Source: Ezakiella peruensis (GTDB lineage Bacteria > Bacillota > Clostridia > Tissierellales > Peptoniphilaceae). From it: a DNA stretch of 64,000 nucleotides. The notes beneath the pieces are model-generated. The model did no database searches, was not told the DNA's origin, and worked only from the letters and a program-made list of their open reading frames with translations. Positions 8,283-23,986 of this stretch are shown in pieces. A program made the translations under genes and the position numbers. The DNA is taken from positions 62,001-126,000 of the forward strand of contig NZ_LT962470.1 of NCBI RefSeq assembly GCF_900215725.1. The letters are read 5' to 3'. Position 1 is the stretch's first letter; each line of letters begins with the position of its first letter.

Positions 8283-11200
8283 TTATTCCATTGGGGCAAC
8301 TTTTTCTTCTATAAAATCAATCTCTTCTTGAGATAAGCCATATTTTTTATAAAGTTGCTGATCAATTTCTGGTATAGATTTAGTCCAGTTGATATCTGAA
8401 TTTTCTGTGAAATCTTGGAGTGGAACTTTTGACCAAGTTTCAGGTGTTTTATTATTTTGTGTTATCTTTCGAATTCCTAGCATTGTTCTTGCAAATTTTG
8501 ATTTTATATACTTAAGCAATGCTTTAGCCTGATATTTGTCAGCAAAGCTTCCCAAGCTTATAAATGTTTGTGTATGCCCGATTAGGGGTTCCCCGATTAG
8601 GGGTTCCCCGATTAGGGGTGTGCTTAAAACCTCACCAATTGCCCCAGAACCGTTCGCAGCAGGCAAAATGACTTTAAAGGTCTCGAGGTTACCATTGTCC
8701 TGTATATACCTTCTATTTATAAATTTATACACTCTTTGATTATTTTGTCTTCCTAGTACACAGATGTCTCCATCCTTTTTTGTATCACGAAATACTTCTG
8801 GAAATCTATCAAACGATGAGGATACTAGCCGCCTTTCCCTGTTGTTGCCAACTCTATCTTCATATTCTGGATAATCTGAAAGCAATACATCTAAATTAAA
8901 TTTTAGCTGTACATACATAATTTGTCCAAATACATCCAATTCAGATGTTTCTGAAACTTTTTCTAATATAGAATCTAATTCTTTAAATGATGTAAACTCG
9001 CCTATTGGCCCTAGAATTTTATTTCTATCCCTTAATGTTATTGCTAAACCACCTTTTATATCAGCTCCAGGAAAAATTTGTTCGGAATTTTTCTCGTAGA
9101 ATTTTACACATAAATGCTCGTCTTCCAACATTTTTTTATTCCATTCTTTATTAGTTGATCCTATGTTAAACAAAAATCTTGCAGGAGTAATATAAGTCAC
9201 TGTATCTGCTAGGCTAAAAGCTGCATCATAAAAATAGTGATAAATAGCATCGTCTCTATTTCTATCTGAGTTATTTTCTTGATAAGGCGGATTTCCAATT
9301 ATTATATCAAATTTCATTCCTTCTCCCCATAACTTTTCTATTTCTTCTTTGGCCTTTCCTTGCTTTGCAGCTGGAACAAGGTCACAAAGTTTTATATTCT
9401 TGTCATCTATATCTTTAAAGTCACTCATAATATAATTTTTGCTTATATTATAAATGGTCCTTGTTGGTGCAAGAGCATAGACTTGATTTTCTATAATCCA
9501 TTTTAATCTTTCTTTTTGATCTGGTATTTCTGTTTCCAATCCTTTGTTTAGTCTCTTGATAATCTCAACTACAAACATTCCACTCTTTGAATATATGTCT
9601 GCAAATTTTAGATTTTTGTCAGAGAAAACATTAGGATATTCTTTTTCCAATATGTCCAACATAAATTCTACAACCCACCTAGGGGTAAACTTTTGATTGG
9701 TTTTTTGTGATGGGATAAAGTCAAAGATATCTTCTTTTTGCTCTTCCTTATAATAATCTGAAAGCCTATCTCTAGTATCATAAAATTCTTGGATACTTGA
9801 ATTAAAGACTGGCTCGTTAAAGAACCCAGGAATCCTTTCTTCCTTGCCCCTTACTTTTTCTGTAAAACCATCACGTAGAGTCTTAAAATCATCTACTGTT
9901 ATACCTGTTACATCCAAGAAATCATCAGGATCAACAATTCGATCGTAATTTTGGAGAGTAACGTCTCGATTGCCATACGACATTAAGAAAGACGGTATGG
10001 TCCTTGAGAATCCTCTCAATTTTTCCCTTACTTCATCTTCACTAGACTTTTTAATCTTTTCTTTGGCCTTTATTTCAGTTTTTATTACATGTTCTTCAGT
10101 GCTACCTTTAATAACTTCAGCGACCTTTTCATAAAGATTATTTTCAATTTCTTTCTTTTTAGCTTGATGGTCTTCAATTTCTTTCTTTAACTCTTCTATT
10201 ACTTTCTCATCTTTAGTGTTACCAAGTTCTTTTTCTTTGTTCTCTATTTGTTTGTTCTCTATTTCAATATCATAACTTGCAGATTCATATTCTTTTTTCA
10301 AGTTTCCTTTTATGGTATCTTTTAAGTCTTTTTTATTTTTGTTTAGGTCTCTATCTGTAAAATTGTATGTTTTCTGGGTCTCGGAGAAATCCATTTTATT
10401 ATCCACATACTCATCAACAAGCTTAGAAGTATCTTCAATGAATTTATCTGGCTTATCCTCTTTTCTAATAGAGTCTACTTGATCTTGAGCGTCTTTATAG
10501 ATTTTTGGCCCAAAGAGACTATTGGTTTGGTTAATAACAATTGCTGAATCCGGAATAATATCCCCGTTTTCATCAAGATTTATATTATCTGGAATTTTTG
10601 TTTCTGTCTTTTTTCTATTTTCTTCAAAAGGTTTTTTTAGTTTATTAATAATATCTTCCAAAGCTTTTGGCACTCTAAATATAGCAGATATATTTTCAAA
10701 CAAGAAGTTACTCATAAATCCACTTCTAACAACTTCTGTTGCCTTAAGAGCTGATGGAATTTTAAGAACTTCCTCAGCATTCAGTTCATACATTCTGCCG
10801 TTTTTATCTTCAGCTACAACTGGGAAGAAGTTTATTAGCTCTTTTATATTTTCTTTGCGATCATTTCTAGTTTCAGCTTTATCTGATCTTAAATTGTTTG
10901 CAAACTCATCAAATTGTATTAATGTGCGTTCAGGTGCAAAGTCGAAAACATATGCGTTTTCCTTTATATATAATTTACCATTATCTTCGTCTGTAAATGA
11001 ATATGGATTTTGTGCACGAAAGGCTGCTTGAAAATATAGGGCGGGAGATTGAATATTTGATAAAATCATCACTCCTGTCCATTCTGGTACGGTCACACCT
11101 GTTGTTAGTTGGCCAACAGATAAAGTGATCGTCTTTTCATTTTCTTTAATTGCCCGGCGAACTTTGTCTAGAGATTTTTTAGCCTCATTGTTATCTACAA

Positions 11201-12644
11201 TTTCTTCTGTACCATCATCTTTTAAAACTTCACCGTCTCCAGCCGCCAGAACTACTTTGTAATCTTTGAAGAATTCATCTTCTCTAAGGAGTTTTTCTAG
11301 AGCCTTGGCCGAGTCAACTCTATTTAATAGCCAAAGTGTATGGTTAAGTTTATGCCTGTACTCAGATGGTGCAAAAGGATACTTGCCTTGGCAAATGTTT
11401 TTTAAAAACAGTTTTACGCTACTCTCGTATACAAAAGTCCCATTTTCTTTAGTAGAAAAAAACTCATTTAAATCAAAGGTATAATCCAAGTTTTTATCAT
11501 CTATATCTACTCCCTCTTCGAGATATTGTTCCATAATCCTACTCATTTGATAAGTAAATAGGTGAAGAGTTGGTAAATTTTCATATGGATTTGTATCTAA
11601 TTCAGCAGGCCACTCTTTTTTTGCTCTCTGTTCATCAGCATATGACCAGTTATATATTTGTTCTTCATTAAACTTATTGGATGCTAGAGCCTTGAATGGG
11701 GTTCCCGAAAGATGCAATGTAAATTTTCTTTGAATTTTCTCAAGGAGTTTATCAGTTTTAAAAGTATCTACTCCTTCATGGGATTCGTCAATAACAACTA
11801 AGTCAAATTCTTGCTTAGTTATCCAATCGTTCTTAGCATAATCTCCTCCAGCCCAGTCTGATCCTTTTAGGTCTTGGAGAGAATAAAATGATATAAAGCC
11901 ATCTACAGAGCCTAAATTCTCTTTAGCCACTGTGATGTATTCTTCACGGCTAATCGGGCCTTTTTTGGTAATAGAGTCAGACTCCGATATAAATAAGTAT
12001 TTGGGGTCCTGCCACCTAATAAATTTTATAAAATCATCGTACCAGGAATTTGCAATAGCAGGCCTGTTAGTGATTATAAGTACCGAGGTTAGTTCAAGCC
12101 TTCTTATCATATCATAAGTAGTTAGTGTTTTTCCAAACCGTGGTTTTGCATTCCAAAGAAATTTCTTACTTAAAAGAGGATTTGTAAGTGTTCTCTTATA
12201 GTATTCAATAGTTTTACAAACCGCGTCCTCTTGTTCTTTTCTTAATGTGTAAGCAGAGGTGGATTCTATTTTCTGCACACTTGAATAGTCCATATTAATG
12301 AACTTGTCTGTAAGTATTTCTGCTTGTTCAGGATGGTCACCAAAATAAAACCATTCATTAGCACTGGTTCCAAAATCTTCTCTTTTTATGTCATTTTTTT
12401 CAAAGAACTGGTGAAGATCGTAGTCTGTAAAATATTCGCCATTAGAATGTTTAGCGACACGATCAAAATAAATTTTTGGAATCAATCCTGCTTGACTTAA
12501 TTGCTCATTTATTCTTGTGGCAACATCACGGGTAGTTTGTCCAACTTTTACATACTTAATTCTATCAGGTATTACTGGTAAGGTATATCCATAGACTTTT
12601 CGCTCTGTCTCTATTATTGGATTAATTTCAATAATATTTGCCAT
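8283..12644 (-). CDS. Single-chain restriction-modification protein (nuclease-helicase-N6-methylase-specificity)
   Basis: About 1,453 residues from the ATG at 12644 (AAAGGAG site; an in-frame ATG at 12674 lies inside the preceding gene). Residues 15-105 resemble a GIY-YIG/T5orf172 nuclease domain (YGYTLP, then KYVKVGQT, then NEWFYF). An SF2 helicase follows: KPRFGKT at 167-173, DESH at 284-287, SGTPF at 312-316. Long charged helices (about 700-880) act as a spacer. A gamma N6-adenine methylase carries a KSG-type motif I near 1018 and catalytic NPPY near 1117. The end (about 1230-1453) is the Eco57I-type recognition region. The order resembles type ISP/IIG enzymes. A partner methylase-like gene lies 2 bp upstream. 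Confidence 0.8.
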   Translation of the reverse strand: MANIIEINPIIETERKVYGYTLPVIPDRIKYVKVGQTTRDVATRINEQLSQAGLIPKIYFDRVAKHSNGEYFTDYDLHQFFEKNDIKREDFGTSANEWFYFGDHPEQAEILTDKFINMDYSSVQKIESTSAYTLRKEQEDAVCKTIEYYKRTLTNPLLSKKFLWNAKPRFGKTLTTYDMIRRLELTSVLIITNRPAIANSWYDDFIKFIRWQDPKYLFISESDSITKKGPISREEYITVAKENLGSVDGFISFYSLQDLKGSDWAGGDYAKNDWITKQEFDLVVIDESHEGVDTFKTDKLLEKIQRKFTLHLSGTPFKALASNKFNEEQIYNWSYADEQRAKKEWPAELDTNPYENLPTLHLFTYQMSRIMEQYLEEGVDIDDKNLDYTFDLNEFFSTKENGTFVYESSVKLFLKNICQGKYPFAPSEYRHKLNHTLWLLNRVDSAKALEKLLREDEFFKDYKVVLAAGDGEVLKDDGTEEIVDNNEAKKSLDKVRRAIKENEKTITLSVGQLTTGVTVPEWTGVMILSNIQSPALYFQAAFRAQNPYSFTDEDNGKLYIKENAYVFDFAPERTLIQFDEFANNLRSDKAETRNDRKENIKELINFFPVVAEDKNGRMYELNAEEVLKIPSALKATEVVRSGFMSNFLFENISAIFRVPKALEDIINKLKKPFEENRKKTETKIPDNINLDENGDIIPDSAIVINQTNSLFGPKIYKDAQDQVDSIRKEDKPDKFIEDTSKLVDEYVDNKMDFSETQKTYNFTDRDLNKNKKDLKDTIKGNLKKEYESASYDIEIENKQIENKEKELGNTKDEKVIEELKKEIEDHQAKKKEIENNLYEKVAEVIKGSTEEHVIKTEIKAKEKIKKSSEDEVREKLRGFSRTIPSFLMSYGNRDVTLQNYDRIVDPDDFLDVTGITVDDFKTLRDGFTEKVRGKEERIPGFFNEPVFNSSIQEFYDTRDRLSDYYKEEQKEDIFDFIPSQKTNQKFTPRWVVEFMLDILEKEYPNVFSDKNLKFADIYSKSGMFVVEIIKRLNKGLETEIPDQKERLKWIIENQVYALAPTRTIYNISKNYIMSDFKDIDDKNIKLCDLVPAAKQGKAKEEIEKLWGEGMKFDIIIGNPPYQENNSDRNRDDAIYHYFYDAAFSLADTVTYITPARFLFNIGSTNKEWNKKMLEDEHLCVKFYEKNSEQIFPGADIKGGLAITLRDRNKILGPIGEFTSFKELDSILEKVSETSELDVFGQIMYVQLKFNLDVLLSDYPEYEDRVGNNRERRLVSSSFDRFPEVFRDTKKDGDICVLGRQNNQRVYKFINRRYIQDNGNLETFKVILPAANGSGAIGEVLSTPLIGEPLIGEPLIGHTQTFISLGSFADKYQAKALLKYIKSKFARTMLGIRKITQNNKTPETWSKVPLQDFTENSDINWTKSIPEIDQQLYKKYGLSQEEIDFIEEKVAPME
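8577..8619 (-). repeat. 15-bp in-frame tandem repeat inside the specificity region
   Basis: Nearly three exact copies of CCCGATTAGGGGTTC, encoding PLIGE-PLIGE-PLIGH near residue 1348 of the restriction-modification protein. Each unit adds five residues without shifting frame, so copy number changes would alter spacing in the recognition domain. Confidence 0.9.
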
Positions 12645-12646
12645 GT

Positions 12647-13354
12647 CTAACTCCTTTCTATTTCTTCCTTCCAAAGTTTATCTATAGCTACTGGAACATA
12701 TATTTCCTCTATTTCTTTTTTATCATCTTGAAAAAAACTTATTTGATCATACACAATTCTACTTTTTGATTTTCCACTCGATACATTTGCCTGTTCTCTT
12801 ATTTCATCCAAAGTATATTCTGTTCTTTGTATGATATTGTAACCTTTTTTATTTTTGTTAACTACCTGCCATTCAGAAAAGATAAGGTCATTGCCATAGG
12901 GATCTTTTTCTGTAAGAAAATTTCCTAATAAGTTATTAGCACTTATAATAGTAATTGCAGATTTTTTTATATTTTCATTTATATTCACTTTTAGTTTTTG
13001 AGCATACTTTCTATAATATTCCATATATGTTTCAGTAATATTTGCAACACATTTCTGTGAGTTGTCTTTTAATAGTTCAACTCCATATAAGGTTGTCAAT
13101 GCCATAATGGATTCATTTTCATAAGTAATCAAATCATCTGGGCTTTTTTTGAATAAATAATCAAGACGCATTTTTAAAAGTTCGACTAAAAATATTCCCT
13201 CGCCAGCCGATGGCTCAAGAACTGTTTTTGTAAAATCCGTCTTAGCCTCTTTGATTCCAGGCAAGGCAAGCATTTTATGTACTATAAATTTAGGGGTAAA
13301 AACTTCCCCATGATTTTTTACTCTTTCTCGACTTTTAATTAATTTTTCTTCCAC
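12647..13354 (-). CDS. Methylase-like subunit of the restriction-modification system
   Basis: 235 residues starting with GTG at 13354 behind a GAGGAG site. It has the N6-adenine methylase motif X (GEVFTP at 16-21) and an intact AdoMet-binding motif I (EPSAGEG at 47-53). The catalytic NPPY/NPPF motif IV is not found: the corresponding stretch is charged and reads ..IFSEWQVV... It therefore probably does not methylate DNA alone but works with the large fusion encoded 2 bp downstream, which carries NPPY. Similar small genes precede related fusion enzymes in other bacteria (recognised pattern). It is the first gene of the island operon. Confidence 0.7.
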   Translation of the reverse strand: MEEKLIKSRERVKNHGEVFTPKFIVHKMLALPGIKEAKTDFTKTVLEPSAGEGIFLVELLKMRLDYLFKKSPDDLITYENESIMALTTLYGVELLKDNSQKCVANITETYMEYYRKYAQKLKVNINENIKKSAITIISANNLLGNFLTEKDPYGNDLIFSEWQVVNKNKKGYNIIQRTEYTLDEIREQANVSSGKSKSRIVYDQISFFQDDKKEIEEIYVPVAIDKLWKEEIERS

Positions 13355-16093: not shown

Positions 16094-16119
16094 AAGCACC
16101 CGGTTTCCTCCGAGTGCTT
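16094..16119 (-). terminator. Terminator of the radical SAM operon
   Basis: AAGCACTCGG and CCGGGTGCTT pair on the minus strand around a GAGGAAA loop, followed by TTTGCTTG. It lies 12 bp after the radical SAM stop codon. Confidence 0.85.
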
Positions 16120-16131
16120 AAATCTACATAT

Positions 16132-17091
16132 TTATTCTAAGGCGCCGCCGCAGGAGCTTCCAGATCCGGCTGTACATCCGTAGCAGTGGTTGGCTGTGGC
16201 AATTTTTCTTTTCCCTAAGCCCATTTCCAGTGCTTGGTCAAGGGTCTTTGGCTCATCAACCATTTGTAGGTCAGTGGCCAAATTAAAATCGCAGTCATAA
16301 AGTGTCCCGTCGTCGTTAACGCTTATCATATCCCTACACATGACATCGTTAATGGTTGCCGGGTTAAAGGCTGCCAAAAGTTTATCCATGTAGCGTTCCA
16401 GGTTGCCTGATCTTTCCAGCCAATTGTAAAATCTGCCGGATGGATTGTTGGTGATGGTAAAAAGTTGGTTGAATTTAATGCCATATTCATCCAGCTTGTC
16501 CCTGTAAATATTTTCCAGTTCCACTTGGTCGCCAGGCAAAATTGCCCCGTTTGGATTATATACAAGATCCAAAATCAAATCGTCTTCAATCCCATAGCCC
16601 ATCTTGGTTAATTTTTGCAAGACTTGAATTGATTCATCGTAAACGCCCATGCCGCGTTGGCGGTCGGTCTTGTCCTTTTCATAAAAAGGAAGGGAGGCGA
16701 CGATTTCAACCTTGTGGTCTTTCATAAATTCCAAGTAACCCTCGTATTCTGGTTCAAGGTGAATGGTCAGGTTGGTCCTGGTCATAATTTTTTTGGCGTA
16801 TGGAGCTAGGTTTTCGATTAAATATTTATATTGGCTGGACATTTCTGGAGCCCCGCCAGTGATGTCTAGGATTTGAAATCCTTCTTTTTTAAATAATTCA
16901 ATTACCTTGTCCGCAGTTTCCCTGTTCATATCTTCTGTCCGCGAAGGGCTTGACTCAACGTGACAATGCTTGCAAGCCAGGTTGCAAGTCTTGGTAATGT
17001 TTACTTGCATGGTTGCCAGCTTGTCTTTGGACCAGAGGATGCCGTCTTCTAAATGGCTTTCAAAATCTGGAATATTTAATTTCTTTTCCAT
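16132..17091 (-). CDS. ArsS-type radical SAM protein
   Basis: 319 residues. The radical SAM cluster motif CNLACKHC is at about 36-43, followed by the DITGGAPEM SAM-binding strand near 78. The C-terminus has extra cysteines (MCRDM near 252, YDCDFN near 268, and a final HCYGCTAGSGSSCGG), a pattern of the ArsS / selenodomain radical SAM family. ArsS attaches a 5'-deoxyadenosyl group to arsenic during arsenosugar synthesis; no ArsM methyltransferase lies here, so the substrate may differ. All family positions that are sometimes selenocysteine are cysteine codons. Last gene of the operon; overlaps the upstream gene by 1 bp. Confidence 0.8.
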   Translation of the reverse strand: MEKKLNIPDFESHLEDGILWSKDKLATMQVNITKTCNLACKHCHVESSPSRTEDMNRETADKVIELFKKEGFQILDITGGAPEMSSQYKYLIENLAPYAKKIMTRTNLTIHLEPEYEGYLEFMKDHKVEIVASLPFYEKDKTDRQRGMGVYDESIQVLQKLTKMGYGIEDDLILDLVYNPNGAILPGDQVELENIYRDKLDEYGIKFNQLFTITNNPSGRFYNWLERSGNLERYMDKLLAAFNPATINDVMCRDMISVNDDGTLYDCDFNLATDLQMVDEPKTLDQALEMGLGKRKIATANHCYGCTAGSGSSCGGALE

Positions 17092-17429
17092 TAGAATTCC
17101 AACTCGTCAATTAATTTTTTCATTTGTGTGCCATGGGCCAATACTGCACCGCCTGTAATTGCAGTTGCAACATGGACTGCTTCCATGAGCTCCTTGTTGT
17201 CGCAGCCTGATTGGAGGCTGGCTTCTGTGTAAGCTTCAATGCAGTATGGGCAGTGAACAGCGTGGGCCACAGCAATGGCGATCAGATTTTTTTCTCTGGT
17301 TGTAAGAGCGCCTTCTGCAAAAACGTCTGCATAGTAGGCCATAAATTTATTCCAAAGTTCTTTGTCTAATTCTCCAAGTTCTCCCTTACCAAAAGCTTGT
17401 AGGTCTTTTCTTTCATAGTATTCACTCAT
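17091..17429 (-). CDS. AhpD-like (carboxymuconolactone decarboxylase fold) protein
   Basis: 112 residues with the redox motif CPYC at about 60-63 followed by a conserved histidine region typical of AhpD-like proteins. Members next to ArsS-type genes are described as peroxidase-like companions. It probably carries out thiol-disulfide chemistry for the pathway in the cytoplasm. The start ATG at 17429 has a GGAGGAAT site. The stop overlaps the radical SAM start by one base, which implies coupled translation. Confidence 0.8.
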   Translation of the reverse strand: MSEYYERKDLQAFGKGELGELDKELWNKFMAYYADVFAEGALTTREKNLIAIAVAHAVHCPYCIEAYTEASLQSGCDNKELMEAVHVATAITGGAVLAHGTQMKKLIDELEF

Positions 17430-17477
17430 AATATTCCTCCCTAAAATTTTATTTTTATTTTTAATCCCTTGCGAATT

Positions 17478-17915
17478 TTATCCGCAAATTTCTTCCACCA
17501 GTTCAATAGCTGTAAATATTGCCTGAGGACAAACTCTTTCGATGGTCCCATCTTCAAAGGCCTTGGATAGGTTATCGCCTTCATTTACATTAGTAGCTAA
17601 TAAATCCTTGCACATATTTGATCCCATTTTTTCTTTAAAGGCTGTCACAAACTTATGTGAAGCTTTGATGAGTTCAACCTTTCCCTCATCGTCCATGGCT
17701 CCCTTAATAAGGCCGATTACCATGAGTCCTCCGCTTAAAGCCCCACAGGTCTCCCCTGTGTAGTGGCCAAGCTCAAAGGGCTGAGCAATTTTTTTGGCTG
17801 TTTCTAGACCTAAATCAATGGCTTTTTTATTTGCAAAGTGCATGAGTACAACTTGTGAGCAATTGTAGCCTTCGCCCATCCAGGCTAGGATTTGCTCTCT
17901 TTCATTATCTTTCAT
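17478..17915 (-). CDS. C_GCAxxG_C_C family putative redox protein
   Basis: 145 residues. The family cysteines are visible: NCSQ near 19, GETCGALSGG near 56-65, MCKDLL near 102 and VCPQ near 129. The family (PF09719) is thought to be redox-active or metal-binding, but no reaction has been assigned. It is 48 bp upstream of the AhpD-like gene and 25 bp downstream of the Fe-S protein gene, with no terminator between, so it belongs to the same operon. Confidence 0.85.
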   Translation of the reverse strand: MKDNEREQILAWMGEGYNCSQVVLMHFANKKAIDLGLETAKKIAQPFELGHYTGETCGALSGGLMVIGLIKGAMDDEGKVELIKASHKFVTAFKEKMGSNMCKDLLATNVNEGDNLSKAFEDGTIERVCPQAIFTAIELVEEICG

Positions 17916-17940
17916 GTGTTTCTCCTTATCAATTTATAAT

Positions 17941-18897
17941 TTACATCTTATGATTTCTAAATTTTATTTTCAAAACATTTTTCCCGTAAGACTGGCTTGG
18001 TCTTTCGTCAACTCCCAAGACTTCGGTCAAAAAGTTTCTTACATTATTTATGCCGCTTGCCTCGAAAACCCCAGCACAAGTTGAGCAGTAAGTGTAAATA
18101 TTGTCTGCGTCAATATCCTTAATGTCTTGGTGCCAGTCGGTCTTGATTTGACCTTCGGTCTTGGATGCGCCGCCGCCCATGCCGCAGCAATTTATTTTTT
18201 TGTAAGTCCTTGTCTTGACATTTGGAGCAAATTTTTTAATGTGTTCAAAGATAGGCGAATCAAAACGCTCTGAGCAAGGGAAAAATACATGAGCCTCTTC
18301 CTCTATGGTCTTACCCTCTCCGATTTCCAATAAATATTCGTATGGGTCAATGATTTCTATGTCATCGTAGCGATTTTTCAAAAAGTGATAGCAGTTGGGG
18401 CAGCAGCAAATGAGTCGCTTGACGCCCTTGTCCCTAAAGACCTTATCTATATATTTCATCTTGGGGTCGCCACCCATTTCTGCTACTGGCTTCTTGCAGC
18501 AGTCAACGGAAAAATCCACTCCATGCTCAGCGCAGATTTCGATCATGCGTTCAGATGTCTTGGGCAAAAATCCTGGATAATTGCAGCCCAAAAATAAAAG
18601 TGTCTCCGATGGCTTTTTGCTATTGTTTCTCAGCTTGTAATTGTTTTTCATAAATTCCACAGAGCCCAGGCCCTTTGGATTCTTTTGCCTGAGTTCGAGG
18701 GCGATTTGCCTACCCGACAAATCTTTGGGGCAGACTTCCTTGCACCTGTCACACATAAAACATGAATAGCGGAGGTCTTCGCGGTCGCAAAAGTCCAGCA
18801 GATTCATAGAGTATTTTTCTAAAAATTTACAGTTTTTTGTGCAAGCCCCACACTTGATACAGTCTTGTCTAGTTCTTTCGATTTCACTTACCGTCAT
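17941..18897 (-). CDS. Fe-S protein with CCG domains (heterodisulfide-reductase-like)
   Basis: 318 residues from the ATG at 18897 (AAGGAG site 10 bp upstream; an in-frame ATG at 18999 lies inside the previous gene). Two 4Fe-4S motifs, CIKCGACTKNC and CFMCDRCKEVC, stand in the first 60 residues. Cysteine-rich CCG-type blocks follow: DCCKKP, CCCPNCYHFL and NCCGMGGG. The pattern resembles HdrD/GlpC/LutA-type electron-transfer proteins. It likely supplies or accepts electrons or reduces a disulfide-like substrate in this pathway. It overlaps the upstream glycosyltransferase gene by 14 bp. Confidence 0.8.
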   Translation of the reverse strand: MTVSEIERTRQDCIKCGACTKNCKFLEKYSMNLLDFCDREDLRYSCFMCDRCKEVCPKDLSGRQIALELRQKNPKGLGSVEFMKNNYKLRNNSKKPSETLLFLGCNYPGFLPKTSERMIEICAEHGVDFSVDCCKKPVAEMGGDPKMKYIDKVFRDKGVKRLICCCPNCYHFLKNRYDDIEIIDPYEYLLEIGEGKTIEEEAHVFFPCSERFDSPIFEHIKKFAPNVKTRTYKKINCCGMGGGASKTEGQIKTDWHQDIKDIDADNIYTYCSTCAGVFEASGINNVRNFLTEVLGVDERPSQSYGKNVLKIKFRNHKM

Positions 18898-19558
18898 AGC
18901 TTTCGTACTCCTTATGTATATCAAATATATCCCTGCCGTGCCTGTACTTCCATTGGAGCTTTTGCATTTTAAAATAGGTCCTAAAGGCTCCCTTTTCAAA
19001 GCGTCTGGCCGATGTAATTATAGGCAGGTCAATGAGTTCAATCTTCTTGCCCATTTTATTTATATCCACAGACAATTGATAGTCTTCCATCAGCGGAATT
19101 TCCTTGTAACCCCCTATGGATTCAAAGAGGTCCCTCCTTATAAAAATTCCCTGGTCACCAAAGGCAAGTTTTTGTAGCCTTAGCCTAAAGGCAGTTGTAA
19201 AATATGAATTTAATCTGAGAGCAAAAGTGTCCTTGTCAAATTTTAGCCTAAAGCACCCAATCTCGTAACCCGATTCCTCAATGGCGAGGACTGACTTTGG
19301 ATGCAAAATCGAATCCACGTGGACAAACCACAGGTATTCGGTCTTGGCATACTTGGCCGCAGCGTTCATCTGGAAGGCCCGATACTTGGCCTCTTGAATT
19401 TTTGGATAAGTAATTAGCTCATAGGTTTTATCCGTGCTAAAGCCATCGGAGAAGATGACATCAAAGTCACCCTCCAATTTCCTTAGCTGATTTTCAATTT
19501 TTGCTATATTTCCTTCCTCATTATAAGTCGGAAGAATTATCGTCACTTTTTTTGACAA
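18884..19558 (-). CDS. Family 2 glycosyltransferase, selenodomain-associated transferase 2 type
   Basis: 224 residues. A GT2 start (TIILPTYNEEGNI at 5-17), a DGFSTDKT strand near 38 and an HVDS metal-binding motif near 79 are clear. The length and the GDQGIFIRR segment fit the TIGR04283 family (rSAM/selenodomain-associated transferase 2), known from gene clusters with ArsS-like radical SAM proteins. It probably transfers a sugar or sugar-like group. The start is TTG, inside the end of the upstream VTT gene (38-bp overlap), with a weak GGTGA site, so translation likely depends on coupling. Confidence 0.85.
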   Translation of the reverse strand: MSKKVTIILPTYNEEGNIAKIENQLRKLEGDFDVIFSDGFSTDKTYELITYPKIQEAKYRAFQMNAAAKYAKTEYLWFVHVDSILHPKSVLAIEESGYEIGCFRLKFDKDTFALRLNSYFTTAFRLRLQKLAFGDQGIFIRRDLFESIGGYKEIPLMEDYQLSVDINKMGKKIELIDLPIITSARRFEKGAFRTYFKMQKLQWKYRHGRDIFDIHKEYESYDGK

Positions 19559-20225
19559 CTAAATCACCAAAATACTTTCTTGTAAAAAATATTGGCACAA
19601 TAACTATTAGAGCAAGGAGGACTGCAGCAATTATAAATGAAGCAGAACCCGGCTCCAACATCTTATCGCCAAAGTTTAAAAATATTAACGTGCCCGGAAT
19701 AATCCCAATAACCGACGAGAGCATGTGAACCCAGAACTTGACATTTGTAATCCCCGCCAGATAATTTGAAAGGCTAAAGGATACAATGGGCATGATCCTC
19801 ATTACAGTTAAAACTACAAAGAGGGATTTTTGATCTTCGGTCAAAAGTTTTTCCCTGAGTTTGCCGCTGACTCTGTTTAAAATAATTTTTTCTACAAAGT
19901 CCTTGGCTACATACCTGGATAAAAAATAAACCACAATTACATTTAGCATGGCTCCAAGCATGGTGAGGAGGCTGCCCTTGCCAATCCCGTACATTACTCC
20001 GCCTGCAAAGGCGATGACAGGAACCGGAAACATAAATATGGGCAGGACCACCCAGCATAGCACGTAAATTACCTCGCCCCAAACACCGTAGCTTTGAACA
20101 AAGTCGCGGATGTGCTCAAACTTTGCATACCTGGCCAAATAAATTGACCCGGCCACGATGATTATAGCGATTAATATTTTAATTATTTCCTGGATCTTTT
20201 GTTTCTTCGTCTTTGTATTTTTCAT
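19521..20225 (-). CDS. VTT-domain (TVP38/TMEM64) membrane protein A
   Basis: 234 residues with five or six hydrophobic segments and the VTT/SNARE-associated core (FAGGVMYGIGKGSLLTMLGA, then RIMPIVSFSLSNYLAGI). This DedA-related family includes lipid scramblases and transporters. It begins within the last 47 bp of the second VTT gene and overlaps the glycosyltransferase by 38 bp. Two different VTT proteins in tandem suggest they act together, perhaps moving a lipid-linked product or intermediate; that role is inference. Confidence 0.8.
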   Translation of the reverse strand: MKNTKTKKQKIQEIIKILIAIIIVAGSIYLARYAKFEHIRDFVQSYGVWGEVIYVLCWVVLPIFMFPVPVIAFAGGVMYGIGKGSLLTMLGAMLNVIVVYFLSRYVAKDFVEKIILNRVSGKLREKLLTEDQKSLFVVLTVMRIMPIVSFSLSNYLAGITNVKFWVHMLSSVIGIIPGTLIFLNFGDKMLEPGSASFIIAAVLLALIVIVPIFFTRKYFGDLVVKKSDDNSSDL

Positions 20226-20922
20226 CGTACATCTTCTTAGCCATCGTTACAATAGCTGAACCGCCAAATAAGATTAAGAGGCCAATAAACATCTTTTGTG
20301 CGCCGCCTGTTAGTTGAGCACCTCCGTATGAATAGATAACTGTAGCTGGTAATTGGCCAATACCTGTTGCCCAGAAAAAGCTCCAGAAACTCATAGATGT
20401 AAGTCCTGCAACATATGAAACTGGGTCAAAAGGAACAAATGGTAAAAGTCTGGCAATGATAATGGTATTTGTGCCATATCTTTCAAAAAATTGTTCAATC
20501 TTTGCTATACCTGATTTTGCATTTAATTTCTCAACAACGTCACGGCCTAAAACGCGAGCAATGTAGAAGCAGAGACCTGCTGCAACCATGGATGAGGTCC
20601 ATGAAAGGATGGCTCCCCTCCACCAGCCCCAGATAACTGCGTTTGATAGGGTTATAACAAAGGCTGGGACAGGTGCGATAATTGCTTGCAGGATCATCAA
20701 TAAAAATGAAACTGCAACTGCATATCCGCCGAAACCTCTGATGTATTCAACCACTTTATGAATGTCAGTTGTAAATACTGTTGAAACTGCTGTGTTAATC
20801 TTTGTGTTTACACTTGGTACAAAGAAATATACCAAGAGGCAGATACCAATAACGGCTAAAAGAATTATCCGTCTGGTGTTGGCCTTTTTTTGTTCTTGTG
20901 GAGTTAAATCGTGTTTTGTCAT
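20179..20922 (-). CDS. VTT-domain (TVP38/TMEM64) membrane protein B
   Basis: 247 residues, N-terminal cytoplasmic segment then a membrane anchor near 17-33 and the VTT core (APVPAFVITLSNAVIWGWWR near 90, ARLLPFVPFDPVSYVAGLTS near 160). It is clearly paralogous to the VTT gene downstream but not nearly identical to it. The start lies 9 bp after the stop of the transferase-kinase fusion, with AGAGGTGA as ribosome-binding site. Same operon. Confidence 0.8.
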   Translation of the reverse strand: MTKHDLTPQEQKKANTRRIILLAVIGICLLVYFFVPSVNTKINTAVSTVFTTDIHKVVEYIRGFGGYAVAVSFLLMILQAIIAPVPAFVITLSNAVIWGWWRGAILSWTSSMVAAGLCFYIARVLGRDVVEKLNAKSGIAKIEQFFERYGTNTIIIARLLPFVPFDPVSYVAGLTSMSFWSFFWATGIGQLPATVIYSYGGAQLTGGAQKMFIGLLILFGGSAIVTMAKKMYDEKYKDEETKDPGNN

Positions 20923-20931
20923 AATTCACCT

Positions 20932-22380
20932 CTAATAAAATCTTTCCCTTAACATTTTTAAGAAATCTAAGCTTAAAAATTTATCTATCTTATTCTCTGT
21001 ATCTTCATTTTTTATGGCCCGGTCGCTGGAGTACTCCCGCTTAGCCATGGAGCACCAGGTAACCCCCCTTAGGGTGTTGAAGGTCATAAATTGTTTTAAT
21101 AATACGCGGTTTACTGGTCGGTACTTTTCGTATTCACTTAAAAAGTTTTCGATTTCTGCGTCCGACAAAATTTTATCGGTCTTCCAATTGGTCGTAGTCG
21201 GTACCAAAAAGTGGGCCAAGTCCTGTTCGCAGTCGCCAATAATGGGCTTCTCCCAATCTATAATATAAGAATTATTATTGATAATAAAATTGCGATTGTT
21301 AAGTTCTGTATTTATTATAGACGGTCGATCCATTTGGGCATCCAAGTCATAAGAGCCTGCAATTTCCATAAGCTGGTCGATAAACTTTTCGACTTCCCTG
21401 TCCCGGTCCTCCCAAGATTTGTAGTGGGAGTACATGGACAAGCATTCCTCGTACATCATCTTGAAGGGCTTATCTGCGCGAATGAGTTTTGAATGGCTGG
21501 CGTCCATATTGTGAACGGTTGACAAAAGTCTGGCAGCTGTCGCCATGTCTTTGTCGTAATCGAGGGGCCGGCCTGTCAAATATTCCATGGTCAAAAAGCC
21601 ATAGGGAATATATTCGCCAACTTTTTTGCACTCATAGGCCTTGGGCGTTACACCTGATTTTTCTAGCTCTTTTAAGGCTCCATACTCATAGGCAATTTGG
21701 TCTTTGCCAAGTCCCATTTGACTGGCAAAGTTAATGCGAAAAACCCTATCGCCAACCTTGTAGTTGACATTATATTCGCCCCTGCCGATCAGGTCAATAT
21801 CAAAAATTCCCGTCTCTGCTCGGACCAGGTCGTCAAACTCATCTATGTCCAAGATTTCTTTTAAGACCTTGACCTTAAATCCTTTTTCTTCTGCCAGGTC
21901 AAGTGTATCTGTGAGTACGTGGGGCGTAGAATATTCTATGCCAGTAAAAATATCGCATTCCCTATTCATTCCCACCAGTCCGTAGCCGCCGTCAGCTACG
22001 GGAGCAATGACTATATCATAATCGTCAAGAGCCTCATAAGCAGACTTAATCAAGGCATCATCTATGCCAACCAAGTCCGAGCCAATTAAAATCACCTTGT
22101 CATTTGACTTGAGCTCATTATAAATGGCCTCCTTCATCCGCCTGCCCAAGCTGCCTTTGACCTGGGGCTTATGGGGAACTTTTGTAAGGTCGACATTTAA
22201 AAAATCCAATTTTTCATAAGCTCCAGTAAAATAAATCGTGCAGGGAAAGTGGTTTATGGATACAAAGGTATCTTTTATTAGCTTTCGGCAAATTGCCAAA
22301 ACTTTTTCGTCATCTATAAATTCCCTTAAACGTGATTTACAAAAACCAGGCTCAGGTGCTTTTGTGAAAAATATAATCAT
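20932..22380 (-). CDS. Fusion: DUF2064 selenodomain-associated transferase 1 + kinase-like (APH/choline kinase) domain
   Basis: 482 residues from the ATG at 22380 (AAGGAAG site; ATG 22413 in frame lies in a terminator). Residues 1-205 are the DUF2064/TIGR04282 transferase (TKAPEPGFCKSRL at 6-18, GSDLVG near 107, ADGGYGLVG near 135). From about 208 on comes an aminoglycoside/choline-kinase-like domain (GRGEYNVNYKV nucleotide loop, MEYLTGRPL). Its catalytic loop reads INTELNNRN where HxDxxxxN is usual, while the metal-binding D of IDWEKP near 365 is kept. First gene of the operon. The fusion hints that the sugar is phosphorylated or that the kinase-like part binds the product. Confidence 0.8.
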   Translation of the reverse strand: MIIFFTKAPEPGFCKSRLREFIDDEKVLAICRKLIKDTFVSINHFPCTIYFTGAYEKLDFLNVDLTKVPHKPQVKGSLGRRMKEAIYNELKSNDKVILIGSDLVGIDDALIKSAYEALDDYDIVIAPVADGGYGLVGMNRECDIFTGIEYSTPHVLTDTLDLAEEKGFKVKVLKEILDIDEFDDLVRAETGIFDIDLIGRGEYNVNYKVGDRVFRINFASQMGLGKDQIAYEYGALKELEKSGVTPKAYECKKVGEYIPYGFLTMEYLTGRPLDYDKDMATAARLLSTVHNMDASHSKLIRADKPFKMMYEECLSMYSHYKSWEDRDREVEKFIDQLMEIAGSYDLDAQMDRPSIINTELNNRNFIINNNSYIIDWEKPIIGDCEQDLAHFLVPTTTNWKTDKILSDAEIENFLSEYEKYRPVNRVLLKQFMTFNTLRGVTWCSMAKREYSSDRAIKNEDTENKIDKFLSLDFLKMLRERFY

Positions 22381-22465: not shown

Positions 22466-23182
22466 TTATTTTACTAGTTCGTATTCGTATTCCTTAGTTC
22501 CGTCGATAGCGTTTGTAACGTCATATCCTTCTTCAGCAAGCTTGTGAGCTCCGCCAAATGATCTGTTTCCTGAATAGCAGTATGTTAGAACTGGCTTATC
22601 CTTTGGAATTTGATCTAGGATATTTAAAACGTCATCAGCTGTTGTGTTGATAGCGCCTGCAATGTGGCCTTCGTTGAAGTCTTTTTCTTCTCTGAAGTCA
22701 AGAATTGTAACGTCGCCCTTAATAAGTTCAGCAAATTCTGGTCCAAGAACTGATTTAGCCTTGGTCATAGTTGTGTATGCGAAGTCTTTTACGCCTTCAG
22801 CATTTAAAACCTTTGTAAAGCCATTGTCTTGAAGAATTTTTTGAGCTTCTCCACTCTTCTTACCTGTGTTGCAAACTGTGATAACATTCTTATCTTTGAA
22901 AGATTCGATTTCTGAAAGTCTGCTTTCAAGTGTATCAAGTGGAATGTTGATAGCGTGTTTTACGTGTCCTTCGTTATATTGTTCAGGACCTCTAACGTCG
23001 ATTACAAGGTAGTTTTCTTTTTCCTTGTTGTCTTCTTCAATCTTGTCTAAGTCTGCACCTGAGATTGTACCATCAGCGCTTGCTGTTGAATCAGTCTTTG
23101 CTGGTGCATCATTTGATTTACATCCAGCAAAAGCTAATAATAAAGCAAGGATGCAAACTAAAAAAATATTTTGTTTTTTCAT
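22466..23182 (-). CDS. Lipoprotein with two rhodanese domains
   Basis: 238 residues. A lipoprotein signal peptide ends in LAFAGC (Cys20), so the protein is anchored outside the membrane. Two rhodanese domains follow: residues 45-130 with catalytic CNTGKKSG and 140-235 with CYSGNRS. Both active-site cysteines are present. Rhodaneses carry sulfane sulfur as a persulfide. Its position upstream of the radical SAM operon suggests a link with sulfur or selenium delivery, but the terminator between them makes that uncertain. The ATG at 23182 has a GGAGGAA site. Confidence 0.85.
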   Translation of the reverse strand: MKKQNIFLVCILALLLAFAGCKSNDAPAKTDSTASADGTISGADLDKIEEDNKEKENYLVIDVRGPEQYNEGHVKHAINIPLDTLESRLSEIESFKDKNVITVCNTGKKSGEAQKILQDNGFTKVLNAEGVKDFAYTTMTKAKSVLGPEFAELIKGDVTILDFREEKDFNEGHIAGAINTTADDVLNILDQIPKDKPVLTYCYSGNRSFGGAHKLAEEGYDVTNAIDGTKEYEYELVK

Positions 23183-23207: not shown

Positions 23208-23259
23208 AGTGGCAATAGCCACTTTCGATATTATAGCAGATAATGATAAAAATATCCAA
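23208..23259 (-). promoter_or_regulatory. Promoter and 5'-end stem-loop of the rhodanese lipoprotein
   Basis: Minus-strand TTGGAT (23254-23259), 18-bp spacer and TATAAT (23230-23235). Immediately downstream, AATATC-AGTGGC-loop-GCCACT-GATATT folds into a hairpin that would form the very 5' end of the mRNA. Confidence 0.6.
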
Positions 23260-23617: not shown

Positions 23618-23627
23618 AAATATGTAA

Positions 23628-23895
23628 GGTGCGGACTTAGAATCGAACATTTGCAACCGTGCCCACCATGGCACTTGGCTCCTCACGGATGGCTATATGT
23701 CACACGAAAGAAACGCGTATCGCTGCTTCGTTCCCGACCTGACGAGGTTCGGCGCACTTTACGTTGCATATAGGTCCAATGTATCAACACCAAGATGCCA
23801 CAATAGCATCCGACCACAAAAAGCCCTCAAAAAAGTCAGACTCTGCTACAGCGGATTGCAGATTACAAGGAACCGCTAGCCCCCCGTCTTGCACC
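23628..23895 (-). ncRNA. ffs: Signal recognition particle RNA, large Bacillus type
   Basis: About 268 nt. The conserved helix 8 core GTCAGGTCGGGAACGAAGCA is present near the 3' third, with the GGAA tetraloop. The 5' domain has the Alu-like CTAGCGG...CCGCTGTAGC segment of large Gram-positive SRP RNAs, and the ends pair (GGTGC...GCACC). The pair closing the GGAA loop is G-C instead of the usual C-G, a compensated change. It guides secretory ribosomes with Ffh. It directly follows tRNA-Ser and both probably come from one precursor. Confidence 0.9.
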
Positions 23896-23896
23896 A

Positions 23897-23986
23897 TGGC
23901 GGAGAGAGAGGGATTCGAACCCTCGATACGTTTAAGCGTATACTCGCTTTCCAGGCGGGCGCCTTCAACCGCTCGGCCATCTCTCC
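23897..23986 (-). tRNA. tRNA-Ser (GGA)
   Basis: 90 nt with acceptor GGAGAGA/TCTCTCC, a long variable arm (TATACGC...CGTAT) typical of serine tRNAs, a TTCGAAT T-loop and an encoded CCA end. The anticodon loop CTGGAAA gives anticodon GGA, reading UCC/UCU. The anticodon stem CCCGC/GCGAG contains one C-A mismatch. It is followed one base later by the SRP RNA. Confidence 0.95.

Follow-up and report, generated by a model that had tools for sequence, protein, structure and literature searches.

Why should ArsS, a radical SAM enzyme of arsenosugar biosynthesis, lie in an operon that holds no gene for arsenic methylation? The question is raised by a 64,000-nucleotide stretch of the Ezakiella peruensis genome (NZ_LT962470.1, positions 62,001 to 126,000; hereafter the window), in which eight minus-strand genes at 16132-22380 end with arsS. 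A first-pass annotation, made from the window alone, had proposed a pathway in which a deoxyadenosyl or sugar unit is joined to an acceptor containing sulfur or selenium (or an unknown one) and a lipid-linked product is exported or flipped. Comparison with the remainder of the genome and with relatives leads us to favour, with some rather than high confidence, a different reading, an anaerobe's arsenosugar (arsenoribosyl-lipid) pathway to which the operon contributes the ArsS half. Judged by its genes, the locus is a variant of the ArsS/arsenosugar group, with candidate genes for later steps and a separable module that occurs without ArsS.

A conserved nine-gene unit around ArsS

Open reading frames (ORFs), family scores, spacing and a terminator-like hairpin all agree with the eight coupled genes, single terminator, coordinates and protein families that had been annotated. 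The unit is real but was incomplete, as a ninth gene, encoding a lipoprotein with two rhodanese stretches, belongs to it: this gene lies 85 bp upstream of the DUF2064 gene on the same strand and is found in the same place in relatives. From promoter to terminator the features are:

23230..23258, minus strand: promoter-like site TGGATA-17-TATAAT with extended -10, upstream of the operon (consensus scan only)
22466..23182, minus strand: rhodanese lipoprotein, ninth member (PF00581, two stretches; lipobox read from sequence)
21811..22380, minus strand: DUF2064/CofC-like nucleotidyltransferase domain (TIGR04282, 149 bits, cut-off 134)
20932..21810, minus strand: APH/choline-kinase-fold, sugar kinase-like domain, fused to DUF2064 (Pfam APH; HxD replaced by NTE)
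20179..20922, minus strand: VTT/DedA-type membrane protein 1 (PF09335, 102 bits)
19521..20225, minus strand: VTT/DedA-type membrane protein 2 (PF09335, 80 bits)
18884..19558, minus strand: family 2 glycosyltransferase (GT2; TIGR04283, 197 bits, cut-off 182; GT-A fold)
17941..18897, minus strand: protein with 2x[4Fe-4S] ferredoxin and CCG (HdrB/TfrB-like) parts (Pfam CCG; invariant Cys sets)
17478..17915, minus strand: C_GCAxxG_C_C redox protein (PF09719; TIGR01909, 65 bits, cut-off 47)
17091..17429, minus strand: AhpD-like protein, ArsS partner (TIGR04169, 157 bits, cut-off 120)
16132..17091, minus strand: ArsS radical SAM enzyme (TIGR04167, 411 bits, cut-off 300)
16094..16119, minus strand: intrinsic terminator-like hairpin (10 pairs, T-rich tail)

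Read 5' to 3', the eight genes are spaced by +9, -47, -38, -14, +25, +48 and -1 bp (gaps positive, overlaps negative), taking ATG 18897 as the start of the CCG gene and ATG 22380 as that of the DUF2064 gene rather than the longest ORFs. Sites of this promoter type number 28 between 15000 and 24000, where 19.7 would be expected. Genes for a large bacterial signal recognition particle (SRP) RNA and tRNA-Ser(GGA) stand side by side just upstream (23627-23986, minus), so that the operon's promoter probably falls within the intervening ~400 bp.

To what extent is this arrangement kept? A comparison of neighbourhoods across genomes, which the first-pass annotation had suggested, bears out its view that ArsS, TIGR04282 and TIGR04283 form a conserved group of which the two VTT proteins and the redox partners are genuine members. 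We inspected the ArsS neighbourhoods of all 29 ArsS-positive genomes in a family set of 130. In a different genus (G386, with G513 and G514 in agreement) the order is again rhodanese, DUF2064, VTT, VTT, GT2, CCG, C_GCAxxG, AhpD and ArsS, with the kinase domain absent, and the rhodanese lipoprotein gene is equally placed at eight loci (L021, L157, L163, L165, L166, L168, L023 and L167). The nine genes thus form one conserved unit whose order is seen again in other genera. Rearranged sets, with a kinase gene that stands on its own, occur in G529, G532, G533 and G494 (genera g249 and g229); in G494 that gene is interrupted by the contig end.

The CCG gene shares a stretch with arsS in 14 of the 29 genomes. 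In the other 15 we inspected the CCG neighbourhood of 13 (G091, G185, G440, G442, G444, G453, G457, G458, G467, G481, G483, G484 and G515, leaving out G441 and G445); VTT and GT2 genes are near CCG in all 13, and DUF2064 is within the stretch in all except G457 and G467, the CCG match of G515 being weak (8e-43). In G481, from the window's own genus, the contig breaks off next to the module but still shows AhpD and the start of ArsS; module and ArsS are therefore probably linked there.

The CCG protein, searched with a profile built from 42 homologues, is the best marker of the module. It is found in 38 of the 130 family genomes at E<=1e-90 (41 at E<=1e-40), and it tracks ArsS even when unlinked (27/29 ArsS-positive versus 11/101 ArsS-negative genomes; Fisher 7e-17). 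The two also agree within genera: both are present in 6 of 8 genomes of g3 and in 3 of at least 6 of g249. Elsewhere CCG is fused into single proteins with DUF2064 (P0186), GT2 (P0193) and VTT (P0198).

An ArsM-like gene, absent from the window, lies elsewhere in the genome

The annotation was right that the window holds no arsM or arsenic-resistance gene: models for ArsM and Acr3 found no match there, matching only on other contigs. For the genome as a whole the statement does not hold. One ArsM-like ORF lies at C3:95409-96146, with an in-frame TGA that would be read as selenocysteine (Sec) in the motif UVGG, a UxxG context; SelB is present (356 bits, cut-off 242), and RNA folding shows a hairpin at the locus. 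Acr3 scores 338 bits (cut-off 283) within an arsR-D-A-acr3-C cluster on C4, of which we presume the arsR, arsD, arsA and arsC genes to be correctly named from their sequence, the model test having been applied to Acr3. Arsenite methyltransferase is among the UxxG selenoproteins named in passages of a review from 2026 (PMC13188914).

With thresholds of E 1e-60 for ArsS and 1e-30 for ArsM, ArsS is detected in 29 and ArsM in 36 of the 130 family genomes and both in 26, so that ArsM accompanies 26/29 ArsS-positive versus 10/101 ArsS-negative genomes (Fisher P 4e-16, in a test that ignores shared ancestry). A sample of the class gives 7/9 versus 26/382 (Fisher P 5e-7, shared ancestry likewise ignored). 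ArsM occurs only together with ArsS in genera g3 and g4 and more widely than ArsS in g1 and g249. The two genes are mostly unlinked in the family. The annotation had named an adjacent arsM as evidence that would overturn its proposal; arsM is not adjacent here, but it adjoins arsS in G457, G458 and G467, and in G355 a single ORF of 676-680 aa carries both domains. The step from a missing arsM to a sulfur, selenium or other acceptor therefore fails, given the Sec-containing ArsM-like gene and ars cluster of this genome and the family-wide co-occurrence.

ArsS itself has both the radical SAM motif CxxxCxxC and the C-terminal SS[C/U]GG, with Cys where many relatives have Sec (SSCGG/SSUGG). Many family arsS genes (at L020, L021, L012 and others) carry an in-frame TGA at the position of the window's Cys, with SSUGG wherever the motif was read, so that exchange of Sec and Cys looks frequent. 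The AhpD-like TIGR04169 protein shares the stretch with ArsS at 80 of 114 loci.

Three neighbourhoods deserve mention in passing. The ArsM-like selenoprotein gene is near a pst/pho phosphate-uptake cluster (L026, G000:C3:86000-105500; named from sequence); PstB- and PstA-like genes are near ArsS at L092; and a small membrane protein, together with a protein that has a YdjY domain (the model being applied to L045 alone), adjoins ArsS at L033, L039 and L045, which belong to Pelotomaculum, Muricomes and Synergistales as a group.

The module without ArsS

Eleven family genomes have the module and no detectable ArsS. In all eleven, genes for GT2, VTT and rhodanese proteins accompany CCG in its stretch (in G518 the VTT gene is 9 kb away, at a cut end), and all except G466 have DUF2064 there as well. 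Three of them have ArsM, ~3.4 kb from CCG in G297; the other eight, with completeness of 92-100%, are without ArsM too. In G471 (L237) and G536 (L243) the CCG gene is split or truncated and the remaining module looks intact. Since the module exists in genomes that lack ArsS, eight of them also lacking ArsM, it may serve other nucleoside-derived sugars, and a use other than arsenic is possible; the ArsS of ArsM-less lineages could conceivably be put to such a use likewise.

Among the named sources of CCG homologues are Treponema pedis, Campylobacter corcagiensis and Peptostreptococcus equinus, and the DUF2064-kinase homologue is also found in T. pedis and P. equinus. A plasmid search for CCG gave 4 distant matches (22-28% identity) and no close mobile copy; match H1 has no annotated genes beneath it.

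A candidate route from dimethylarsenite to a lipid

What might the nine genes do together? Their identity, order and co-occurrence are matters of observation; we infer all of the chemistry, as well as the acceptor and which way the product is transported. The unlinked putative selenoprotein ArsM would produce dimethylarsenite, to which ArsS and its AhpD-like partner would add a 5'-deoxyadenosyl group, giving 5'-dimethylarsinoyl-adenosine, a reaction known for ArsS elsewhere and presumed here. (The full name of the ArsS product is 5'-deoxy-5'-dimethylarsinoyl-adenosine.) Adenine would then be removed, by a phosphorylase (methylthioadenosine phosphorylase, MTAP, or purine nucleoside phosphorylase, PNP) in other phyla and by a nucleoside hydrolase in part of the family, whereupon the APH-fold domain would phosphorylate C1 of the released arsenoribose and the DUF2064 domain would convert it to a nucleoside diphosphate (NDP)-sugar. 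GT2 would transfer the arsenoribose, most likely onto a glycerol-containing lipid, the VTT pair would move that lipid, and the Fe-S/CCG, C_GCAxxG and rhodanese proteins would provide reducing power or thiols or pass them on, the AhpD-like protein likewise having a share in redox handling.

DUF2064 has a nucleotidyltransferase fold with the conserved acidic and glycine motifs, and fold comparison confirms the APH/choline kinase fold of the kinase-like domain. A fold search with GT2 has, in the 50 rows listed, NDP-sugar GT-A enzymes of a general kind and points to no acceptor. Against the UptA model the VTT proteins score 20 and 41 bits, far below the cut-off of 250, so they are not UptA itself. 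The CCG protein has two CCG-type Cys sets with invariant Cys columns, and its HdrB matches at 1e-6 mark an HdrB/TfrB-type similarity.

For the removal of adenine there are two kinds of candidate. A PF01048-type phosphorylase occurs at 15 of 114 ArsS loci, all among the 80 loci of a wider set from other phyla. None of the 15 is farther than 1.73 kb from ArsS, and no others were found from there out to 10 kb (642 kb of sequence was scanned within 3.1 kb of ArsS, 1134 kb at 3.1-10 kb); the model was built from these same genes, which had first been picked up in the 7 kb around ArsS, so that other subtypes farther out could be missed. Of seven that have been typed, three exceed the cut-off for MTAP (L052, L053 and L082) and two are PNP (L066 and L102); L091 is just below the MTAP cut-off (263 vs 275), and L072 has MTAP as its best model at 145 vs 275. 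Within the family, 10 of 24 stretches centred on CCG hold a nucleoside hydrolase (PF01156; 3 of the 10 checked with Pfam), five of these stretches being from ArsS-positive genomes, and nothing was found in the other loci tested with the same model. In G481 the hydrolase gene is flanked by the C_GCAxxG gene on one side and AhpD-ArsS on the other. Seven loci also have an ABC importer. We put forward as a hypothesis that the ArsS product loses its adenine in one of two ways, by phosphorolysis, which would give the 1-phosphate directly, or by hydrolysis followed by the kinase; it stays at that grade because the two forms also split by lineage. For the same reason we rejected as proof the apparent mutual exclusion of PNP and kinase at DUF2064 loci (12 PNP, 9 kinase, 0 both among 54; P 0.08 for no overlap): the kinases are all from this family and the phosphorylases all from wider-set loci.

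A plasmid of Acinetobacter portensis, labelled an NDM-1 plasmid in its record, also carries an arsenosugar-type set with mtnP (L258, NZ_CP096121.1 130097-144978). There arsS, a VTT-FAD oxidoreductase, DUF547, TIGR04283, TIGR04282, an ArsM-like methyltransferase and a phosphate transporter follow in a row, with mtnP after them on the other strand; the set from arsS to mtnP spans less than 8 kb.

Weighing the explanations

Several observations weigh against an arsenosugar role. The genome's own ArsM has NF008823 as its best NCBIfam model, at 217 bits below the cut-off of 263 with TGA read as Sec, although the co-occurrence with ArsS speaks for its identity; Rfam gave no match to a selenocysteine insertion sequence (SECIS) family at its locus. 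The kinase-like domain is without the usual catalytic Asp of the HxD motif: Glu stands at that position in 56/56 aligned rows, and NTE in all 9 locus kinases including that of the window (the motif position was assigned by eye). To judge by its sequence, this lowers, and does not remove, the case that the domain may work like a kinase. DUF2064 is found without a linked kinase in genera g3, g5 and g11, and the models for cleaving enzymes gave no match where they were applied to this genome or nearby: the window, L026 and L117 were negative for the hydrolase, and positions 8001-32000 of the window were negative for the phosphorylase. The module, as we have seen, is present without ArsS in 11 family genomes. 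Conversely, ArsS occurs without ArsM in 3 of 29 family genomes (G444, G453 and G499) and, at E<=1e-30, in 25 of 78 genomes of the wider set, which comprises the best 80 of at least 493 ArsS loci (the L052 genome was left out, and L030 and L032 share one genome; ArsM was found in 34/48 and 19/30 genomes in two batches). Moreover, 14 of the 53 positives are weak matches only (E 1e-31 to 1e-39), and the 25 negatives all fall below the cut-off of a second ArsM model, NF038099, which on 31 genomes reached E<=1e-20 only in the window's genome (76 bits) and G394 (91 bits), both below the cut-off of 400. The negatives are all draft assemblies or metagenome-assembled genomes, with Muricomes intestini, two Pedobacter and one Algoriphagus as named isolates; Muricomes has the fullest VTT/CCG set observed outside the family. 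One ArsS tree group (Muricomes, a Lachnospiraceae, two Synergistales-type genomes, Fretibacterium and G494) is ArsM-negative in 5 of 6 rows, G494 being the positive, in a quick-method tree that gives the group an SH-aLRT of 94, below the starred level. In such lineages ArsS may act on imported dimethylarsenic or on another substrate.

Might the module instead be a pathway of general use, in which a pentose derived from nucleosides (5-deoxyribose, methylthioribose or some other modified ribose, synthesised in the cell or taken up) becomes the donor for glycosylation of a lipid, with ArsS as a plug-in in some carriers? We regard this as rather unlikely. The ArsS-negative module genomes (11/101), eight of them without either gene at our thresholds, are what such a pathway would predict, as are the nucleoside hydrolases adjacent to ~7 kb off in G466, G479, G492, G518 and G548 and the ABC importers in the same stretch in G466, G479, G503, G518 and G548. 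Yet hydrolase and importer are found in ArsS-positive genomes too, CCG follows ArsS in 27 of 29 genomes and is jointly present or absent with it within g3 and g249, its gene is broken in G471 and G536 as if the use had been lost with ArsS, and three of the eleven have ArsM, in G297 close by. A related and possible, if tentative, idea is that rhodanese, nucleotidyltransferase, (kinase,) VTT, VTT, GT2 and CCG, together with hydrolase and importer, make up an unnamed lipid glycosylation pathway whose donor would come from 5'-modified nucleosides, arsenosugar being one use, by way of ArsS-AhpD, and another nucleoside being used in ArsS-negative anaerobes.

The sulfur or selenium acceptor seems to us improbable. 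Rhodanese, C_GCAxxG protein, Sec-containing relatives and the ArsS-positive lineages without detected ArsM could all be taken to point that way, but ArsM and ars resistance genes are at hand in this genome, the family association of ArsS with ArsM is tight and extends to one ORF with both domains, and the status of both enzymes as selenoproteins accounts for their Sec. That chance has simply assembled housekeeping neighbours around an ArsS gene is most improbable of all: in the inspected genomes of g3, g4 and g5 ArsS is indeed not in the module's stretch, but the order is repeated in another genus, rearranged sets occur in g249 and g229, and there are fusions and unlinked co-occurrence.

Relation to known systems

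Passages of two papers describe the role of ArsS and ArsM in Synechocystis arsenosugar biosynthesis (PMC8552651) and a radical SAM enzyme that adenosylates arsenic in arsenosugar biosynthesis (PMC12159101). The present system resembles that of Synechocystis in having ArsS over its cut-off and an ArsM-like gene in the genome; it differs in that arsM is unlinked and encodes a putative selenoprotein, and in eight further operon genes. All three of the NCBIfam families TIGR04282 and TIGR04283 ('arsenosugar biosynthesis glycosyltransferases') and the peroxidase-like TIGR04169 score over cut-off here, but the TIGR04282 domain shares its protein with an APH-fold domain and is associated with CCG, C_GCAxxG and a pair of VTT proteins, and the group also occurs without ArsS. 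The CCG and C_GCAxxG proteins resemble members of the DVU_1555-type/Trs selenium-associated group (NF045663, NF045669), yet are far under its cut-offs (62 of 530 and 44 of 103 bits).

Methylthioadenosine salvage proceeds either through MTAP or through a nucleosidase and methylthioribose (MTR) kinase. The proposed route would be analogous in that a 5'-modified adenosine is cleaved and a sugar 1-phosphate obtained by phosphorolysis or by hydrolysis and an APH-fold kinase, and MTAP genes do lie beside ArsS elsewhere. It would differ in continuing with a nucleotidyltransferase and GT2 instead of isomerisation, and in having NTE instead of HxD. Our literature search turned up no paper with both arsenosugar and methylthioadenosine, and in the excerpts that it returned no genes are assigned to arsenosugar or arsenolipid steps after ArsS; a nucleosidase step is proposed for an alga, no gene being named in the part of that paper returned (PMC10456119). 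The operon and its relatives offer a candidate enzyme for each post-ArsS step, plus alternative forms, and would place an arsenosugar-type pathway in small anaerobes, with Ezakiella, Peptoniphilus and Anaerococcus as named family relatives. They also call into question whether the NCBI name 'arsenosugar biosynthesis glycosyltransferase' is valid wherever these proteins occur.

Elsewhere in the window, a 1463-aa protein combining ResIII helicase and Eco57I methylase, with an overlapping 235-aa gene that has no Pfam match (8283-13354, minus), looks like a restriction-modification unit.

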